Positions 3,513-34,656 of a stretch of 39,985 bases of DNA are shown one piece after another. Below the pieces are notes generated by a model that did no database searches, was not told the DNA's origin, and was given only the letters and a program-made list of their open reading frames with translations. The position numbers and the translations under genes are program-made. The DNA comes from a virus. Every line of letters begins with the position of its first letter. The first letter of the stretch is position 1. The stretch spans positions 1 to 39,985 of IMG/VR virus record IMGVR_UViG_3300024262_000089, one strand, 5' to 3'.

Positions 3513-5988
3513 TGCAGCTCAAGTCGAAGGCATCATGGTCAAACTGACTGGCGATGGTGCTTCCTTCCAAAATATGTTACGCCAGGCAGAAGTTGCTACC
3601 AAAAACTTCCAACAGAAAGTCATTGGTCTTGGAACTTCAATTACTTCTCTTGGCAAGATAATGACGTTTGGTCTGACTCTGCCTCTTGTTGGATTCGCTG
3701 CTGGAACTGTCAAAGCATTCTCTAGTTTTGATAGTGCGATGACTAAGTCAACTTCTATTATGAAAGTGACTCAAGCTCAAATAGACAAGATGCGTCAAAC
3801 AGCCTTACAAATGTCTTCTTCAGGGGAGTTACAGCAGGGGCCAGCAGCACTAGCAGAATCCTACTTCTTTCTTGCCTCAGCAGGTAAAGATGCTGAACAG
3901 TCAATGGCTCTATTGCCAGTCGTAAGTAAGTTTGCGACGGCTGGAGCTTTTGATATGGCTCTGGCAACAGACCTTTTGACAGATGCTCAATCTGCTTTGG
4001 GACTCTCTTCAAAAGACACTGCTCAAGACATGTTGAACATGACTAGGGTCAGTGACGTTCTCATCAAAGCGAATACTTTAGCCAATGCTTCTGCTCAACA
4101 ATTCGCCGAGTCTTTGACGACTAAATCTGCTGCTGCTTTGAAGGTCTTCAACAAAGATGTTGAGGAAGGTGTTGCCGTTCTTGCAGCGTATGCTGATCAA
4201 GGTATCAAAGGGGCAAACTCTGGCGAAAACCTTAATCGTGTGATGACGCTTCTGGCTGCTACTTCCAGAGACGCAGCAGACATGCACGAAAGGTTTGGTC
4301 TCAAAGTCTTTGACTCTTCGGGCAAGATGCGAAACCTTGCAGACATCATCGAGAATCTTGAAGATATTACTGATGGAATGTCTGATGAAGTTCGTTCTGC
4401 AACTCTGAGTTTCCTTGGGTTTGAAGCCAGAGTTCAAGCCACTATTCTTCCACTGCTTGGAAGTTCTCAGGCAATCAAAGACTACGAAAAAGCTTTGAGA
4501 GACGCTGGTGGTACCACAGAAGACGTTGCTAAAAAGCAAATGGAATCTTTTGCTTCTCAAATGGAACGCCTCAAGAATCGAGTCAATGTTCTTGGAATCG
4601 AAATTGGTGAGAAGCTTATTCCGTACCTCAACAAACTTGTTGATGCAGTCAAAGCCGGTCTTGACAAATGGAATAATCTGGACGATTCAATTAAAGACGT
4701 TGTCATTCAAGTTGGAATCTTCGTAGCAGTCGTTGGTCCAGCACTATTGATTATTGGAAAACTGATTTCTGCTTTGGGGCTTCTGTTAACTCCCTTTGGT
4801 CTAATTGCTACTGCAACAGTTTTAGCGGCTGCCGCTTTTCCAGAATTTCGAGAAGAACTAAAAACAACTGTCGTTGAAGCAATCAGGCTTGGAAAAGAGT
4901 TACTCAACATTGTTGGACTTCAAGAAAAACTTGGTCTTGGTAAAAAGTCTGTAATGAAGTTTGGTACTCAAAAAGCAGCTCATAGACTTGACGGTAAAGA
5001 TACTCTTGTTGGTGATGATTCTGATCCAAGATTGAAAGCTGAAAAAGCTATTCAAGAAGAAATGGAACAGATGCTGAAAGAGCAGGAGTCTGTGGAAAAA
5101 GCTCATAGAGCACAACAGACTCTTAAAGAACTCGAAGCGGAAATGAAGCTAGAAAAGGATCACGCTAAGAAGCTGGAAGCAATGAAAAAGAAAGGTCAAG
5201 CATTAACTGCTCAATTTCTTCCTGAAGAAGAGAAGACAGCTCAGCTCAAACAAGAATACAAAGAGCTTTGGGAGACCGGAAACATTGGAGCAGAAACTTA
5301 TCTGAGTGCTCTTGAAGAACTAGAACGTCAATCAAATAAAGATTATCAAATTCATCAATTCGGTATCAGCGATTCTGCTTTGGCTGGTACTTCTGCTGCC
5401 TTCGAAAAGCTTGCTCAATTCGGCGAGTTGAGAGGCAGCATGATTGATAAGACTGGTCCAAGACTTGAAGAATTAAAAACTCAAGAAGCTCAAAGAATCG
5501 CTTTTGATAAAGTAAAGAATCTTGACTCAAACGCTATTACTAACGCTGAAGGAACTTTGGTAGGTGTCGGAAACCCTTCACTTGATCCAAGAGCTTCCTC
5601 AGAAGCATCCATTCAAGATGAAGCGGAAAAGATGCTTGCAGAAAGAATGGCTGATCTTCAACGAATGAACAACGTAGTTAATAAGCAGCCTGCTGTTGAA
5701 AGAGCTATTGCTCAAGAAGTTCCTAACATTCAAGAGCCTTTATCCAGAAGCATACTTGATGGTCCGGGAGAAGGAACAAGAAATATCCGAGATGTCAAAA
5801 TCAATAAACCCCTTGATTACCTCTTGGAAGGTGACAAAGTTGCTCAAAGATTTAATCCAGACAACGTAGGCCGTGGAGAATCTTTGTCAATCATACTGAC
5901 AAGGCTTGTTGAAATCGCAGAAGAGTCTTTGGAACTTGATAAAAGCAAACCATCACTTGAAGTTGCTGACTCTGGACTATCCAGATAA
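3505..5988 (+). CDS. Tape measure protein
   Basis: 827 residues, the longest gene of the tail module, directly after G/GT. Residues about 40-330 resemble the phage tail tape-measure core, with helical Ala/Ser/Leu-rich segments including AFSSFDSAMTKSTSIM and repeated LATDLL-type helices. Hydrophobic segments lie around residues 50-65 and 405-450, consistent with a membrane-interacting part. Long charged helices (residues about 500-620) suggest coiled coil. The approximate rule of 0.15 nm of tail per residue gives a tail near 120 nm, so a siphovirus with a medium-length tail is expected. Confidence 0.9.
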   Translation: MPSAAQVEGIMVKLTGDGASFQNMLRQAEVATKNFQQKVIGLGTSITSLGKIMTFGLTLPLVGFAAGTVKAFSSFDSAMTKSTSIMKVTQAQIDKMRQTALQMSSSGELQQGPAALAESYFFLASAGKDAEQSMALLPVVSKFATAGAFDMALATDLLTDAQSALGLSSKDTAQDMLNMTRVSDVLIKANTLANASAQQFAESLTTKSAAALKVFNKDVEEGVAVLAAYADQGIKGANSGENLNRVMTLLAATSRDAADMHERFGLKVFDSSGKMRNLADIIENLEDITDGMSDEVRSATLSFLGFEARVQATILPLLGSSQAIKDYEKALRDAGGTTEDVAKKQMESFASQMERLKNRVNVLGIEIGEKLIPYLNKLVDAVKAGLDKWNNLDDSIKDVVIQVGIFVAVVGPALLIIGKLISALGLLLTPFGLIATATVLAAAAFPEFREELKTTVVEAIRLGKELLNIVGLQEKLGLGKKSVMKFGTQKAAHRLDGKDTLVGDDSDPRLKAEKAIQEEMEQMLKEQESVEKAHRAQQTLKELEAEMKLEKDHAKKLEAMKKKGQALTAQFLPEEEKTAQLKQEYKELWETGNIGAETYLSALEELERQSNKDYQIHQFGISDSALAGTSAAFEKLAQFGELRGSMIDKTGPRLEELKTQEAQRIAFDKVKNLDSNAITNAEGTLVGVGNPSLDPRASSEASIQDEAEKMLAERMADLQRMNNVVNKQPAVERAIAQEVPNIQEPLSRSILDGPGEGTRNIRDVKINKPLDYLLEGDKVAQRFNPDNVGRGESLSIILTRLVEIAEESLELDKSKPSLEVADSGLSR

Positions 5989-10495: not shown

Positions 10496-10524
10496 TAACA
10501 ATTGCATAATTGACTGGAGCCAAT

Positions 10525-13362
10525 GTGCCAAAGGTTATTGAATTTCGACCATTCTACATTGGGAATAAAGCAGGCTCACGTTCTGAGTTTGTCTTTGAGC
10601 CTAAACTGAAAGAATGGATTGGACCAGATTCAAGCCTCATTAGACAAAATGGCTGGCATCTTTCTCAAGGTGATTCAGCGATTCCTTGCGAGCATACAGG
10701 CACGGGAGCAAAGTGCGGCGAATGGGATTTTCCAGAACTATTACTTCCACCCGAAGATATCGTTAAAGGTAAACGCAAAACAGCAAGAAACCGCTCAAGA
10801 CAATCTACAACTAAACGAACCAAAGCCAGAGTTCACTCAAGAAAAGTTATTGTTCCGGGAGTAGGTTCCTGCATGGCGGAACTTATTTCAAACTTCTTTT
10901 CTATCAAAGATTCCAGCGGCTGCAACTGTAAAGCCTACGCTTCCAAAATGGATAAATGGGGGCCAGAAGGTTGCGAACTTCATCGAGAAGAAATCATCAA
11001 TCATCTAGCCAAGAATACAGAAATTCTTCGGAAGGGAATTCAAGACCTCAACATTCCTGGTTGCGGCTTACTTTCAAAACTCGCCGGCACTTCCGCTGCA
11101 ATTCCTCTTCTCAAGATTGGAGCGAATTGGTTACTCACTAAAGCAATCTCCAGTCACAAATCGAAGAAAGAAGCAGCGACAAAGGTTGGTCCCAAAGATG
11201 CGATCAAATGGATTGAACCAAATCCTTTGAACCTGACTCGGAATCTTGCAATTCATGTCTTCCCGGTCATTGGCAAATGGGAATGGCTCATTGAAGCTCT
11301 TAAAGACAAGACTCATCTTTTCAATGGTCGTAAGCTTGTCTCAATCGTCACTTCTAAAGGCGATTCTGTACGCTTCAAAAACCGAACGATCAGACTTCAA
11401 AATCCTGAAACAGTCGCTGCTCAATTTCGAGAACTTGGCTTTGAGGTTTCTCTCAGGGAAAACTCGGTGAGGACGGGTGAGTTTGTTTCGTTTGCTCCAA
11501 TGGTCAAAGAGCTTTACTCAACTGACCCTTCCCAAGTCACTTTGTACTTACACAGCAAAGGTTCAAAGCATCCAGACAATGAATTTCGATCTATTACAAA
11601 ATGGAATGAAACGATGTTGTCTGTCTTGCTTGATATTGAATCGGTCACAGCGAGTTTCAGCAGAGGCAATGATTTAGTTGGAGCGTTGGGTGGAGATGTT
11701 TTTGGTGATGGCAATGTTCCAATGGGGTCATTCTACTGGTTTAGAAATTCGACTGGTGAAGCAACAGTCACTCCTCACAAGAATCCTTTCTTCACTTCAG
11801 AGAGTTGGCCATCCAAGATATTCAATCAAGAGTATCTCTTAGGTGCAGTCGATGGAAGCAGACCATTCAAGCAACTCTATACAGCAAACTTCTGGGATAA
11901 TGGTGAAGGTTCTGACAGACTCAAGAGATTCAATTCTCAAAGAGTCCATAGTATCGAAGAACCAAAAATCACTTTGATTACTCCAACAGGCGATCGACCA
12001 GAAGCTTTCAGACTCTGCGAGAAATGGATATCTCAACAAACTCTAAAACCTTTTGAGTGGATCGTCATTGACGATGGCGAAGTTCCTACTCAAATCACTC
12101 AAGGTCAAAACTACATCAGGCGACAAGGTAGAAAGAGTTCAGAACATACTCTTCCAGACCAGATGCTTGAAGCTCTCAAGTATGTGACTGGAGATTTTGT
12201 AATCATGATCGAAGACGATGACTACTATCATCCAGAGTATCTTCAATTGATGGTTCAACAATTACAAACAGCGGAGCTTGTCGGAGAAGTTGGCGCTCGA
12301 TACTACTACCTTCCAACTGCAACTTTCAGACACTACACAGAACACACTCATAGCAGTTTCTGCCGAACAGGTTTCAGAAAGAATGTCATCCCACTGCTTT
12401 CAGAAATCTGTAAGGCTTCAAACGAGTCTTTGGATATCAATCTTTGGGAACAATGGACTGGAACCAAACAGCAGCAGTGGAAATCTACGACGATTGGTTG
12501 CATTGGTATCAAAGGAATGCCTGGTCGAAAATCCCATAATAAGATCAGACCAGAAATTGATGATCACAATCTCAAGACGCTGAAGCAATGGTGTCCCGAT
12601 TGGAATGACTACTTACCCTTCTTGAAACCTATCAAAAATCGAGTGGAAGAGACGGGAACACTCTTCAGTATTCTTCTCAGGGAGTATGACCGATTCAGGC
12701 CAGTCTCTGCTGACTCAAGATTTGATCGTCAACTATTAACTGATTCCAAAGAAGTCAAAGTTCAAGGATGGAATATCAATCCAGTCAAACACACTCCAAG
12801 TGATCCTAAGCAATCAAGACATTTGAAGATTCTTGCTACTCAATCTTTTCCAGATGCTGATTGGATTCTTTATCATGATGCTCAACTTCAATTGAAGTGT
12901 AGTCCCTCATTCTGGTTTGATTGGGTACGTTCTCAAGGTGAAGCAGACATTTACTTTTATCATCATCATCAAAGGCATTGTGTCTACAAAGAAGCTAAAG
13001 AGGTGATGAAGATTCGAAAAGATAAGCCTCAAAATGTTCAACCTCAAATTGCTCGATACGCAAGCCAGAAGATTCCTGAAAACCTTGGATTGTATCTCGG
13101 TGGATTACACATTCGACGAAATACAGAAGCTGTAAAAGCCTTCGAAGAAATCTGGTGGCGTGAAGTTAAACGCGGTTCAGTCAGAGACCAGATTTCTTTG
13201 CCCGTCGCTCTTAGAGAAAGTGGCGTCAAGTTTTTAGCTTTACCGCCAATGTCATGGACTCAACATTTTCAAAGATATACTCACCTCACGAATACTCCAG
13301 TCATTGAAAATATGTCGGCGAATGATATTCGTGTCTGGGAAAACTTTAAGAAAACGAAGTAA
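10525..13362 (+). CDS. Multidomain glycosyltransferase
   Basis: 945 residues from GTG 10525, placed 2 nt after GACTGGAGCC; the TTG 10510 would put the SD inside the gene. Three parts are visible. Residues about 100-460 hold a Cys-rich patch and a region with LYLHSKGSKHP, as in phage and rhamnan-type sugar transferases. Residues about 480-720 are a GT2 (GT-A) domain: ITLITPTGDRP, WIVIDDGE and VIMIEDDDYYHP, the DxD-type metal site. The last ~220 residues resemble the DUF616/TOD1-like glycosyltransferase domain, with ILYHDAQLQL, a histidine run and WREVKRGSVRDQISLP. It probably builds a glycan in several steps. Confidence 0.75.
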   Translation: MPKVIEFRPFYIGNKAGSRSEFVFEPKLKEWIGPDSSLIRQNGWHLSQGDSAIPCEHTGTGAKCGEWDFPELLLPPEDIVKGKRKTARNRSRQSTTKRTKARVHSRKVIVPGVGSCMAELISNFFSIKDSSGCNCKAYASKMDKWGPEGCELHREEIINHLAKNTEILRKGIQDLNIPGCGLLSKLAGTSAAIPLLKIGANWLLTKAISSHKSKKEAATKVGPKDAIKWIEPNPLNLTRNLAIHVFPVIGKWEWLIEALKDKTHLFNGRKLVSIVTSKGDSVRFKNRTIRLQNPETVAAQFRELGFEVSLRENSVRTGEFVSFAPMVKELYSTDPSQVTLYLHSKGSKHPDNEFRSITKWNETMLSVLLDIESVTASFSRGNDLVGALGGDVFGDGNVPMGSFYWFRNSTGEATVTPHKNPFFTSESWPSKIFNQEYLLGAVDGSRPFKQLYTANFWDNGEGSDRLKRFNSQRVHSIEEPKITLITPTGDRPEAFRLCEKWISQQTLKPFEWIVIDDGEVPTQITQGQNYIRRQGRKSSEHTLPDQMLEALKYVTGDFVIMIEDDDYYHPEYLQLMVQQLQTAELVGEVGARYYYLPTATFRHYTEHTHSSFCRTGFRKNVIPLLSEICKASNESLDINLWEQWTGTKQQQWKSTTIGCIGIKGMPGRKSHNKIRPEIDDHNLKTLKQWCPDWNDYLPFLKPIKNRVEETGTLFSILLREYDRFRPVSADSRFDRQLLTDSKEVKVQGWNINPVKHTPSDPKQSRHLKILATQSFPDADWILYHDAQLQLKCSPSFWFDWVRSQGEADIYFYHHHQRHCVYKEAKEVMKIRKDKPQNVQPQIARYASQKIPENLGLYLGGLHIRRNTEAVKAFEEIWWREVKRGSVRDQISLPVALRESGVKFLALPPMSWTQHFQRYTHLTNTPVIENMSANDIRVWENFKKTK

Positions 13363-30798: not shown

Positions 30799-31911
30799 AT
30801 GAAAAAGAAATCAGCAACTTCAAAACTGAAAAAGATCAAAGTTGAGAAAAGGGAACCAGTTTGGAAAGGTCCAATTGAAGAAGGTGTTACTCAAAGTTTG
30901 TTGAGTATGTTTTTGACTTGCCGAGAACGATTCAGACTGAGGGTGGTTGAAGGCTTGCGAGTGGTAGAGGGATTTTCCAAAGCTCTTGAATATGGAAACA
31001 TGTGGCATCTCTGCGAAGAGAATCATGCTCACGGAATTGATTGGGAGAAGCCTCTCAAAGAGTATGCTCAAAAACTGGTTGGTCTGTATCAAGGTCAACA
31101 AGAGGAAGTCAGCAAGTGGTATTCAATCTGCAAGATGCAATTTCCCCATTATGTGAAATACTGGAAGCAACATCCAGACGTTAAGAAGCGAACGCCAGTC
31201 TTGTCTGAGGAAGTCTTTTGCGTGCCTTATGTTCTTCCTTCAGGGAGAGTAGTGAAGCTGAAGGGTAAATGGGACAGTGTTGATATCGTTGGTAAGGGAA
31301 GAAATCGACAACTCTGGCTCCAAGAGAATAAATCCAAAGGAACCGTTGACGAAGAAAATATGGAACTGCAATTGGCCTTCGATCCTCAAACGATGATTTA
31401 TGTCGTGGCTCTTGAAGCAGCGATCAAATGCGGTCAAGTAAAATCTCCAGAAGAAAAGATTACTGGCGTACGTTATAATGTCGTGCGGAGACCACTGAGT
31501 AGCGGGAAAGGTTGTATCAGACAACACAAACCGACGAAAAGTAATCCTGCTGGAGAAAGCCTTGAGAGTTTCTATGGTAGGCTGGAGCAATATATCGTTG
31601 ACGAGCCAGAACACTATTTCAAACGATGGAACGTAGAACTCTCTCAAACAGACATTGATAAGTTCAAAACTCAATTTTTCAATCCAATTTTGGAACAACT
31701 CTGCGATTGGTGGGAGTTCATCGCCGTAGAGCCTTTCAATCCTTGGACTAAACGAATGGGACATGCTCAAGGAATTCATTGGAGACATCCTTATGGAATG
31801 TACAATCCAGTGAATGAAGGAAGAGACCAATACAGTGAGTTTTTGAAGAATGGAAACGAAACAGGATTGACTAGAATTCCAGAACTGTTCCCCGAACTGA
31901 AAGAAGAATAA
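30799..31911 (+). CDS. PD-(D/E)XK nuclease, RecB/Cas4-like
   Basis: 370 residues. After the basic N-terminus SKLKKIKVEK come QSLLSMFLTCRERFRLR, GNMWHLCEE (His70) and KGKWDSVDIV (Asp159), then LWLQENKSKG (Glu176-x-Lys178), the D-(x)-ExK core; QLAFDPQTMIYVVALEA follows as in motif QxxxY. Likely a 5' or 3' exonuclease used with the downstream Sak4 recombinase. It contains one copy of TACGTTATAAT (31469). Confidence 0.85.
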   Translation: MKKKSATSKLKKIKVEKREPVWKGPIEEGVTQSLLSMFLTCRERFRLRVVEGLRVVEGFSKALEYGNMWHLCEENHAHGIDWEKPLKEYAQKLVGLYQGQQEEVSKWYSICKMQFPHYVKYWKQHPDVKKRTPVLSEEVFCVPYVLPSGRVVKLKGKWDSVDIVGKGRNRQLWLQENKSKGTVDEENMELQLAFDPQTMIYVVALEAAIKCGQVKSPEEKITGVRYNVVRRPLSSGKGCIRQHKPTKSNPAGESLESFYGRLEQYIVDEPEHYFKRWNVELSQTDIDKFKTQFFNPILEQLCDWWEFIAVEPFNPWTKRMGHAQGIHWRHPYGMYNPVNEGRDQYSEFLKNGNETGLTRIPELFPELKEE

Positions 31912-32156
31912 TGCAAAAGACTGGACTAACTATGGATGAGGCTAAAGACCTCATAAAAGAGCCTACTCTAAGAGGGGAAAGCTCTTGTGGTACTTGTGGA
32001 TTTTTTAGAAAAGGTCATTACTACTCAGACAGTACAAAAAACTTTGCAGATTTTGTGTTTGATAGTAGTCTTGGAAATTGTTGTAGATTTCCTGAAACTG
32101 CTCTAAAAACAAAGACCCATTGGTGCGGAGAATTTTCATTAGAGGACAAAAAATAA
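31911..32156 (+). CDS. Small Cys-rich protein, 81 aa
   Basis: TAATG overlap with the nuclease. Cys pattern CGTCGFF, GNCCRFPE and THWCGEF, four or five ligands for a zinc or Fe-S cluster. Similar short conserved proteins occur in phage replication blocks. Function unknown. Confidence 0.5.
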   Translation: MQKTGLTMDEAKDLIKEPTLRGESSCGTCGFFRKGHYYSDSTKNFADFVFDSSLGNCCRFPETALKTKTHWCGEFSLEDKK

Positions 32157-32164
32157 TCTCAATA

Positions 32165-32340
32165 GGCAAGGTGGCGAAATGGTAGACGCTGATGACATAG
32201 AAGACTTATGAAGGTGTGCTATGTCCCCGAGAACAGTGAATAAACGCGAGTGACAAGAGGGTCTGGAAGGTCACTGGTTTTGATCCAGCAGCACTGTCGC
32301 GAATTAGTAAGTCATGCAGGTTCGAATCCTGCCCTTGCCA
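32165..32340 (+). tRNA. tRNA-like gene with a large internal insert
   Basis: Perfect 7-bp acceptor stem: GGCAAGG (32165-32171) with CCTTGCC (32333-32339), discriminator A. Next a D-arm of the leucine type (GCG AAATGGTAGA CGC) and a perfect T-arm GCAGG TTCGAAT CCTGC (32316-32332). Between D- and T-arm are about 120 nt, where 35-50 would be usual. The insert can form GACATAG/CTATGTC, CGCGA/TCGCG and GTGAC/GTCAC hairpins, and no ordinary anticodon arm is evident. Intron, hybrid or tRNA-like RNA are open. Confidence 0.65.
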
Positions 32341-32375
32341 TTTTACAAATCCCTGAAACTGACTGGAGAAATCTG

Positions 32376-33233
32376 ATGGCCGTTGTTACGAAGCAGAAAC
32401 GAAAAGGCGTTAAGAAACTCACTGGAGATATCTTCGATCAAATTCAACCAATTGAGTTTGACGATTACTTGAAGATGAATCTTTATGGGAAAAGTGGAAC
32501 AGGAAAAACTTCTTTGTGGAGCAGTTTTCCTGGACCAATTCTTGGAATCATTACTTCTGGCTCAAACAAATCTGGTGAGTTGAGAAGTATTTCAAAAGCA
32601 ACAATCAAGAAAAACAGAATTGAACAGTTCCCTCTTCAAGACCCAGACCAGATTCGGGAAATTGTTAAAGCCCAAAGAGACTCTGGACGATTCAAAACTC
32701 TAGTCGTGGATCATATCTCCTCGCTTCAGGATCAAGTGTTAAAGAGTGTTTTGGGACTGGATGAAGCTCCTACTCAACTCTCATGGGGATTGGCAACTCA
32801 ACAGCAATATGGAACGCTGGCTCATCGCATGAAGGATTACATGCGAGACCTTCTTGGATTGGAAAACTGCAACATTGTTTTCGTAGCTCAAGAAAGAGTC
32901 TTTGAACCTAACAATGAAGATTCTGAATTAGATTTGCTACCTTATGTGGCTTCTGCGGTGAGTCCTTCAATTGTTGGATGGCTCAATCCTGCGGTAGACT
33001 ACATCTGTGAGACGTTTATCCAAGCAAAAACGGCAGAGAAAACGATTAAGGTTGCTGGAAAAACGAAGACTAAAACTATTCGCCTGTCTGGAGTAGAATA
33101 CTGCCTGCGAACTGGACCTTCAGAAGTCTACACTACAAAATTCAGAAAGCCTCACGACAGTGGAATTGATCTTCCAGAATACATTGTTGATCCAACATAT
33201 GATAAAATCATGAAACTCATTCAAGGAGAATAG
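32376..33233 (+). CDS. Sak4-type RecA-like single-strand annealing ATPase
   Basis: 285 residues from ATG 32376 behind GACTGGAGAAATCTG. Walker A YGKSGTGKTS (37-46); Walker B-like FKTLVVDHIS. The LGLDEAPTQLSWGLATQQQYGTL and NIVFVAQERVFE segments fit the AAA/Sak4 family of phage recombinases (short RecA-like without the RecA N- and C-domains). It should promote annealing or strand exchange with an ssDNA partner. Confidence 0.8.
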   Translation: MAVVTKQKRKGVKKLTGDIFDQIQPIEFDDYLKMNLYGKSGTGKTSLWSSFPGPILGIITSGSNKSGELRSISKATIKKNRIEQFPLQDPDQIREIVKAQRDSGRFKTLVVDHISSLQDQVLKSVLGLDEAPTQLSWGLATQQQYGTLAHRMKDYMRDLLGLENCNIVFVAQERVFEPNNEDSELDLLPYVASAVSPSIVGWLNPAVDYICETFIQAKTAEKTIKVAGKTKTKTIRLSGVEYCLRTGPSEVYTTKFRKPHDSGIDLPEYIVDPTYDKIMKLIQGE

Positions 33234-34583: not shown

Positions 34584-34656
34584 GGTCCTGTAGTTCAATT
34601 GGGAGAACAGCGGGGTGCATCCCGGACGAATGCTGGTTCGAATCCAGCCAGGACCA
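34584..34656 (+). tRNA. tRNA with atypical anticodon arm (tentatively GCA)
   Basis: Acceptor GGTCCTG/CAGGACC is perfect, D-arm GTTC AATTGGGA GAAC and T-arm GCTGG TTCGAAT CCAGC are canonical, discriminator A, length 73. The anticodon region GCGGG GTGCATC CCGGA pairs poorly (2 mismatches) with a 7-nt loop, reading GCA (Cys) at the standard place; a better CGGG/CCCG stem leaves a 6-nt loop. Identity uncertain. Confidence 0.8.

Follow-up and report, generated by a model that had tools for sequence, protein, structure and literature searches.

The DNA analysed here, called the window, is a virus record of 39,985 bases and belongs to a tailed phage, whose genes include those for PolA, a Sak4-like annealing protein, an exonuclease, an HNH nuclease and a tape-measure protein. 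On its plus strand, an upstream ORF of 81 aa without a family match (31911-32156, stop codon at 32154-32156) is followed by a gene for a Sak4-like ssDNA annealing protein (32376-33233), and between the two lies a tRNA-like gene at 32165-32340, encoding a predicted RNA of about 176 nt on the same strand. The gene starts 8 nt past the TAA of the upstream ORF, and the ATG of the downstream gene lies 35 nt beyond its end. No sigma70-like promoter or terminator was found in the adjacent sequence checked. This tRNA-like gene has no anticodon arm, and the observation is confirmed by the analysis described below.

Parts of the element

The acceptor stem, D-arm and T-arm, which a sequence-only reading of the locus had judged to be excellent, are indeed so. 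The 5' strand of the acceptor, GGCAAGG (32165-32171), makes seven of seven Watson-Crick pairs with CCTTGCC (32333-32339), and the 3' strand is followed by A73 as the discriminator (A 32340, closing the 32333-32340 segment). U8, G9 and a Leu-type D-arm, the same across the family described below, occupy 32172-32189; the D-arm itself (GCG-AAATGGTAGA-CGC, 32174-32189) contains A14, A15, G18G19 and A20a. The T-arm, GCAGG-TTCGAAT-CCTGC (32316-32332), is perfectly paired and follows the family rule of an NCAGG T-stem. CCA is absent from the encoded sequence, so that charging would need CCA addition.

The 126 nt between D-arm and T-arm (32190-32315, estimated at about 120 nt in the sequence-only reading) end with T32315, which is U48, and stand in place of the anticodon arm and the variable arm. 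Since an ordinary class II tRNA-Leu already has about 30-36 nt between D-stem and T-stem, the excess amounts to around 90 nt. In agreement with the earlier reading, this middle contains no anticodon arm of 5 bp and 7 nt. Two helices are predicted to cross in it as an H-type pseudoknot: helix A pairs GACATAG (32194-32200) with CTATGTC (32219-32225), and helix B pairs GACTTAT (32203-32209) with GTAAGTC (32307-32313), the latter strand being separated from the T-stem by a 2-nt linker, AT. An inner arm (32233-32297), predicted to be closed by ACAGTG (32233-32238) and CACTGT (32292-32297), holds the alternative predicted hairpins GTGAC/GTCAC and CTGG-TTTTGAT-CCAG. Compared with shuffled sequences, helix B has P=0.031 and helices A and B together have P=0.0185. 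The plain minimum free energy of the middle is unremarkable (z=-1.4) and belongs to another, nested fold, and a stem of ATGAC with GTCAT (32192-32196/32311-32315) competes.

The inner fold is a prediction because the middle has no diverged relatives. Its sole close relative lies in a 99.97% identical phage and differs in one D-stem base (GACGC to GATGC) with a G-U pair retained. BLAST of the region against cultured phages gave no match spanning its length. Searches with the neighbouring Sak4 and PolA genes returned only the same phage and one relative with 46% PolA identity (L415), which carries its own anticodon-less element, with an unrelated middle and in a different place from the 32165-32340 of the window.

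Standard tools misread the locus. ARAGORN, one of the checks proposed by the sequence-only reading, reports a tRNA-Gln at 32251-32341 that is false: its 3' end is the true one, but the real 5' half is left out and CTGG-TTTTGAT-CCAG is taken for a Gln anticodon arm; the Rfam tRNA model settles on the same false frame with 20.7 bits, below its cut-off. The group I and tmRNA models of Rfam, also proposed as a check, gave nothing, and neither did any group I/II intron, ribozyme or tmRNA model, either at the gathering threshold or at E<=10. Elsewhere in the window, the tRNA at 34584-34656 scores 50 bits with Rfam, has a 6-nt anticodon loop (GTGCAT) and is named 'tRNA-???' by ARAGORN; in L415, the syntenic gene at 5687-5826 has the same acceptor, GGTCCTG, and is an anticodon-less element with an 89-nt middle. 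At 10510-13362, adjoining the tail genes, lies the gene for a protein of 950 aa that has a glycosyltransferase family 2 domain and a TOD1/MUCI70 glycosyltransferase domain.

A modular family in viral genomes

Elements of this frame form an intergenic, virus-borne and modular gene family. Pattern scans of viral contigs in IMG/VR yielded at least 211 distinct elements, whose middles span 42-230 nt; a few at either extreme of length may be false or ordinary tRNAs. The elements fall into at least 174 middle groups without mutual sequence similarity. A scanner based on acceptor, D-arm and T-arm geometry that required 50 nt or longer in the middle gave 304 matches in real loci and none in 3.63 Mb of reversed sequence, a comparison biased by the loci having been chosen partly by tRNA patterns. 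Hits selected by D-box and T-box only thus provide the unbiased test: all seven acceptor pairs are present in 129 of 149 such viral hits (1 of 149 with shuffled 3' strands), and six or more in 142 (7 with shuffled strands). Acceptor pairing is mostly retained among these elements, where its loss in relatives had been named as evidence against the sequence-only reading. In a scan of prokaryote genomes, seven pairs occurred in 2 of 75 among the matches listed, the remaining listed matches having C48/G73 and unpaired 'acceptors', as expected of adjacent ordinary tRNAs. U48 is found in 143 and A73 in 123 of the 149 elements, so neither is universal, while the D-loop elements belonged to the search pattern and are thus not independent evidence for leucine identity. 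Within the window, the scanner returned the 32165-32340 element and the ordinary-sized tRNA at 34584-34656.

The placement of the elements is distinctive. Only 12% overlap ORFs of at least 100 aa, as compared with 59% under random placement, and the 79 elements that have a tRNA no more than 1.5 kb away are all on the strand of that tRNA. Two or more elements, each with a different middle, occur in 30 of 153 loci, the most in single tRNA-rich regions being seven (L005) and six (L124). The commonest acceptor is AGTCAGG (98 of 211), while in phages that have a full tRNA set the ordinary tRNA-Leu genes are separate and carry acceptors other than those of the elements. Members of the family are mostly missed or misnamed by tRNA finders: ARAGORN calls overlap 9 of the 211, mostly under wrong names, and some elements reach the cut-off of the Rfam tRNA model. 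L124 and L005 are the same phage type, with the elements on one strand and nearly all with acceptor AGTCAGG, and L124 has 24 ordinary tRNAs. Other structured RNAs lie on element-bearing contigs, namely GOLLD RNA (L180, 1293-1710), freshwater-1 RNA (L261, 2073-2134) and, in L028, a HEARO RNA and a phage tmRNA at 848-1055 and 5417-5716.

Ends and middles can be exchanged. L190 and L256 have nearly identical middles inside different paired acceptors (AGCCTTG/CAGGGCT and GACACGG/CCGTGTC), and acceptors have likewise been rewritten around shared middles in L184 (TCCATAG) and L231 (AGTCAGG) and in L017 (GGAGAAA) and L074 (GGTGGTA). No convincing sequence motif, effector motif or ORF is shared across the middles; AAATCC and GGTTCG are mildly enriched and partly tRNA-derived. 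A set of class II tRNA-like genes with acceptor TGTAAGG (L042 near 4300, L121 at 2749, L170 at 3169, L177 at 4198) has a hairpin loop TTGTCTC/CTGTCTC near the D-stem, middles of 53-121 nt and a variable region of very uneven length.

Structure of the middles and known relatives

The window element retains acceptor, D-arm, T-arm, U48 and A73 and lacks the anticodon arm, and the middles of the family are structured. Covariation in relatives, another check that had been proposed, bears this out. In the L042 group (seven members) there are 18 double-sided changes, all within helices of the middle, compared with 4.7 in shuffled and 0-3 in slid versions, and the group of RNA1 from phage BF23 has 16 compared with 5.3 in shuffles. 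A single stem reads CAAG-CTTG, CATG-CATG and CAGG-CCTG across L017, L074 and L416. An HDV-like order (A-B-C-C'-A'-E-E'-B') was considered for L017 and L074 and rejected, as neither the junctions nor the other subfamilies are compatible with it and Rfam gives no match.

The last helix also has a fixed position. In 151 unrelated middles whose D-stem is GCG, there is a strong excess of helices with a 3' strand that stops exactly 2 nt short of the T-stem (8.74 against 5.17 in shuffles, z=15.8), and linkers of neighbouring length are at or near the null. The variable arm of ordinary tRNA-Leu, a weak control owing to its short sequences, ends 1-2 nt before the T-stem. Ordinary tRNAs show their anticodon stem at offsets 0-1 from the D-stem, and the same 151 middles give no such signal at offset 1 (position 27). 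The helix 2 nt from the T-stem may thus be the basal part of a class II (Leu) variable arm that has become much larger. The GTAAGTC-AT-GCAGG of the window fits the 2-nt linker rule, and a helix crossing the T-stem-proximal one is modestly enriched family-wide (z=3.5).

The closest known relative is RNA1 of phage BF23 (T5 group), annotated as 'tRNA-like RNA with unknown functions' (AJ604530) and recovered by a slightly looser version of the frame scan. Like the window element, it has a Leu-type D-loop (GAATTGGTAGA), T-arm, acceptor and U48 and no anticodon, and its helix GAGATA/TATCTC ends 2 nt before the T-stem as in the family; the window element is accordingly of the BF23 RNA1 type in its acceptor/D/T frame without an anticodon arm and in its last helix 2 nt from the T-stem. 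RNA1 differs in its D-stem (CCG/CGG), its discriminator (T) and its 80-nt middle, which has no sequence similarity to that of the window and forms a long nested covarying arm at the place of the anticodon arm, without a pseudoknot. In all, 490 phage records contain RNA1, mostly without annotation; among the matches listed, it is named in BF23 only. Other elements that lack annotation were found in Klebsiella phage PKO111 (similar DNA is present in 162 records), Flavobacterium phage FL-1, Bacteroides phage BI-TP1, Enterococcus phage VEsP-1, Weissella phage WC29P3 and Lactobacillus phage Satyr. The cultured phages with a family member have as hosts E. coli, Salmonella, Klebsiella, Flavobacterium, Bacteroides, Lactobacillus, Weissella and Enterococcus. 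In the phages of lactic acid bacteria (VEsP-1, WC29P3 and Satyr; L412, L417, L418) the T-loop is TGCAAAT, not TTCAAAT.

A looser likeness exists to the T4 species 1 (rnaC) and species 2 (rnaD) RNAs, stable RNAs of about 120-140 nt from the tRNA region that are expressed late and whose function is unknown (PMC9697503, PMC3014915). Like the family, the rnaC region shows the T-arm of a tRNA and pairing that resembles an acceptor; unlike it, neither RNA has a clear Leu D-arm, rnaD as annotated has no T-arm, and no sequence similarity to the window element was seen in either. Bacterial class II tRNA-Leu has in common with the window element the acceptor, D-arm, T-arm, U8-A14, A15-U48, G18G19, A20a and A73, and with the family a similar linker (1-2 nt) between last helix and T-stem, whereas the window element lacks an anticodon arm and spans 126 rather than about 33 nt from D-stem to T-stem. 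HDV-like or theta ribozymes have a nested double pseudoknot and a catalytic C and cleave at the tRNA 3' end. Those of phages are, like the elements, phage-borne, tRNA-associated and pseudoknotted, but they sit outside the tRNA, at its 3' end (PMC10879173); the window insert is internal and without an Rfam ribozyme match, so that, judged by its sequence, an HDV-like identity would not apply.

This kind of RNA had already been seen in T5, while how far it extends, its fixed geometry and the modularity of its middles appear to be new; no description of the wider family was found in the literature searched, subscription papers being outside its scope. Isolated stable RNAs of T4 and T5 without known function can now be placed beside a large, widespread and modular family with a searchable fixed geometry, and such naturally evolved tRNA scaffolds with swappable inserts would be of interest to RNA engineers.

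Probable nature of the RNA

Of the three readings first offered, a tRNA-like RNA, a new small intron and a decayed tRNA, it is the tRNA-like RNA that has gained support, from the large family in the same frame, the compensatory changes in conserved middles and the known relative BF23 RNA1. The element very probably encodes a stable phage non-coding RNA in which a structured effector replaces the anticodon arm of a class II tRNA-Leu body. RNase P and the tRNA 3' maturation route recognise the acceptor/T-arm domain, so that the RNA should be excised and stable. It would be co-transcribed with the neighbouring phage genes, cut at its 5' end by host RNase P and trimmed at its 3' end by tRNA maturation; the tRNA body would thus serve to make and protect the RNA, and the middle would act as an effector that binds some target of host or phage, which would vary from one type of middle to the next. 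Roles in host take-over or counter-defence are a guess, prompted by the many different middles, their occurrence several per phage and the accessory tRNA region in which they lie.

Whether such RNAs are also charged is a more tentative matter. The window element has the acceptor and the D- and T-arms with their tertiary elbow, and it lacks an anticodon arm with a Leu anticodon. E. coli LeuRS needs A73, A15-U48, G18G19 and A20a, the anticodon and long variable arm being dispensable (PMC9976931), and all these identity elements are present in the window element. As the anticodon is of no account to the enzyme and everything that it requires is there, the RNA may be leucylated and yet unable to decode. 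Charging by the host synthetase would make it one of a large class of phage RNAs that are aminoacylated, do not decode and bear an exchangeable effector domain for the anticodon arm, a reading against which the chances lean. Retention of LeuRS identity without decoding ability, together with a hypervariable, multi-copy and accessory distribution, would also suit a family that works mainly by capturing, as a decoy or sponge, some host protein that binds tRNA (LeuRS, a tRNA nuclease or a modification enzyme), the variable middle evading others. This is rather unlikely, as conserved middles that covary within subfamilies suggest a specific function for the middle too.

The remaining explanations fare worse. 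A decaying tRNA of which only the ends are still of use, either for the attachment of an integrase or for cleavage by RNase P/RNase Z between genes, would be in keeping with the common use of tRNA ends as attachment sites and with the location of the window element between two co-directional genes. However, an attachment site needs one half and not both acceptor strands, a D-arm and a covarying middle; one phage can hold several elements with different middles; and integrase genes lie beside genuine tRNA fragments in P-SSP7 and Dori, the two phages that this observation covers. Exchangeable ends and covarying middles argue against decay and for selection on both acceptor pairing, kept when acceptors are rewritten, and middle structure, and we regard decay as very improbable. 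A tRNA-Leu split by a very small intron, its class either new or minimal, and spliced to a normal tRNA, is slightly more improbable still, despite excellent exon-like ends and anticodon-like hairpins in a few middles (e.g., L025 and L058). Anticodon arms were found in 10 of 174 middles as compared with about 8 in shuffles, no anticodon stem follows position 26, the offset-1 signal is null, and phages with full tRNA sets own their separate tRNA-Leu genes. A displaced anticodon arm in the window (CTGG-TTTTGAT-CCAG) is rejected on the same ground, such arms being at chance level family-wide. Group I introns have a conserved catalytic core (P3-P8, with the guanosine site in P7) and about 200 nt or more, so that the middle of about 126 nt is, as first remarked, smaller than those of tRNAs; this size and the lack of any group I/II or ribozyme match in Rfam lead to their rejection. 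Archaeal-type introns have the anticodon arm in the exons and a bulge-helix-bulge at the joints, and are rejected since no anticodon arm was found in flanks or middle. Finally, a tmRNA-like ribosome-rescue RNA with a Leu-type tRNA domain is scarcely credible. Its outline is matched by an anticodon-less tRNA body with pseudoknots, but tmRNA has a tag reading frame and a tRNA domain without a D-stem, whereas the window element has a full D-stem with G18G19, no tag-like frame above chance and no Rfam tmRNA match, and the phage of L028 has a tmRNA of its own beside a family element.
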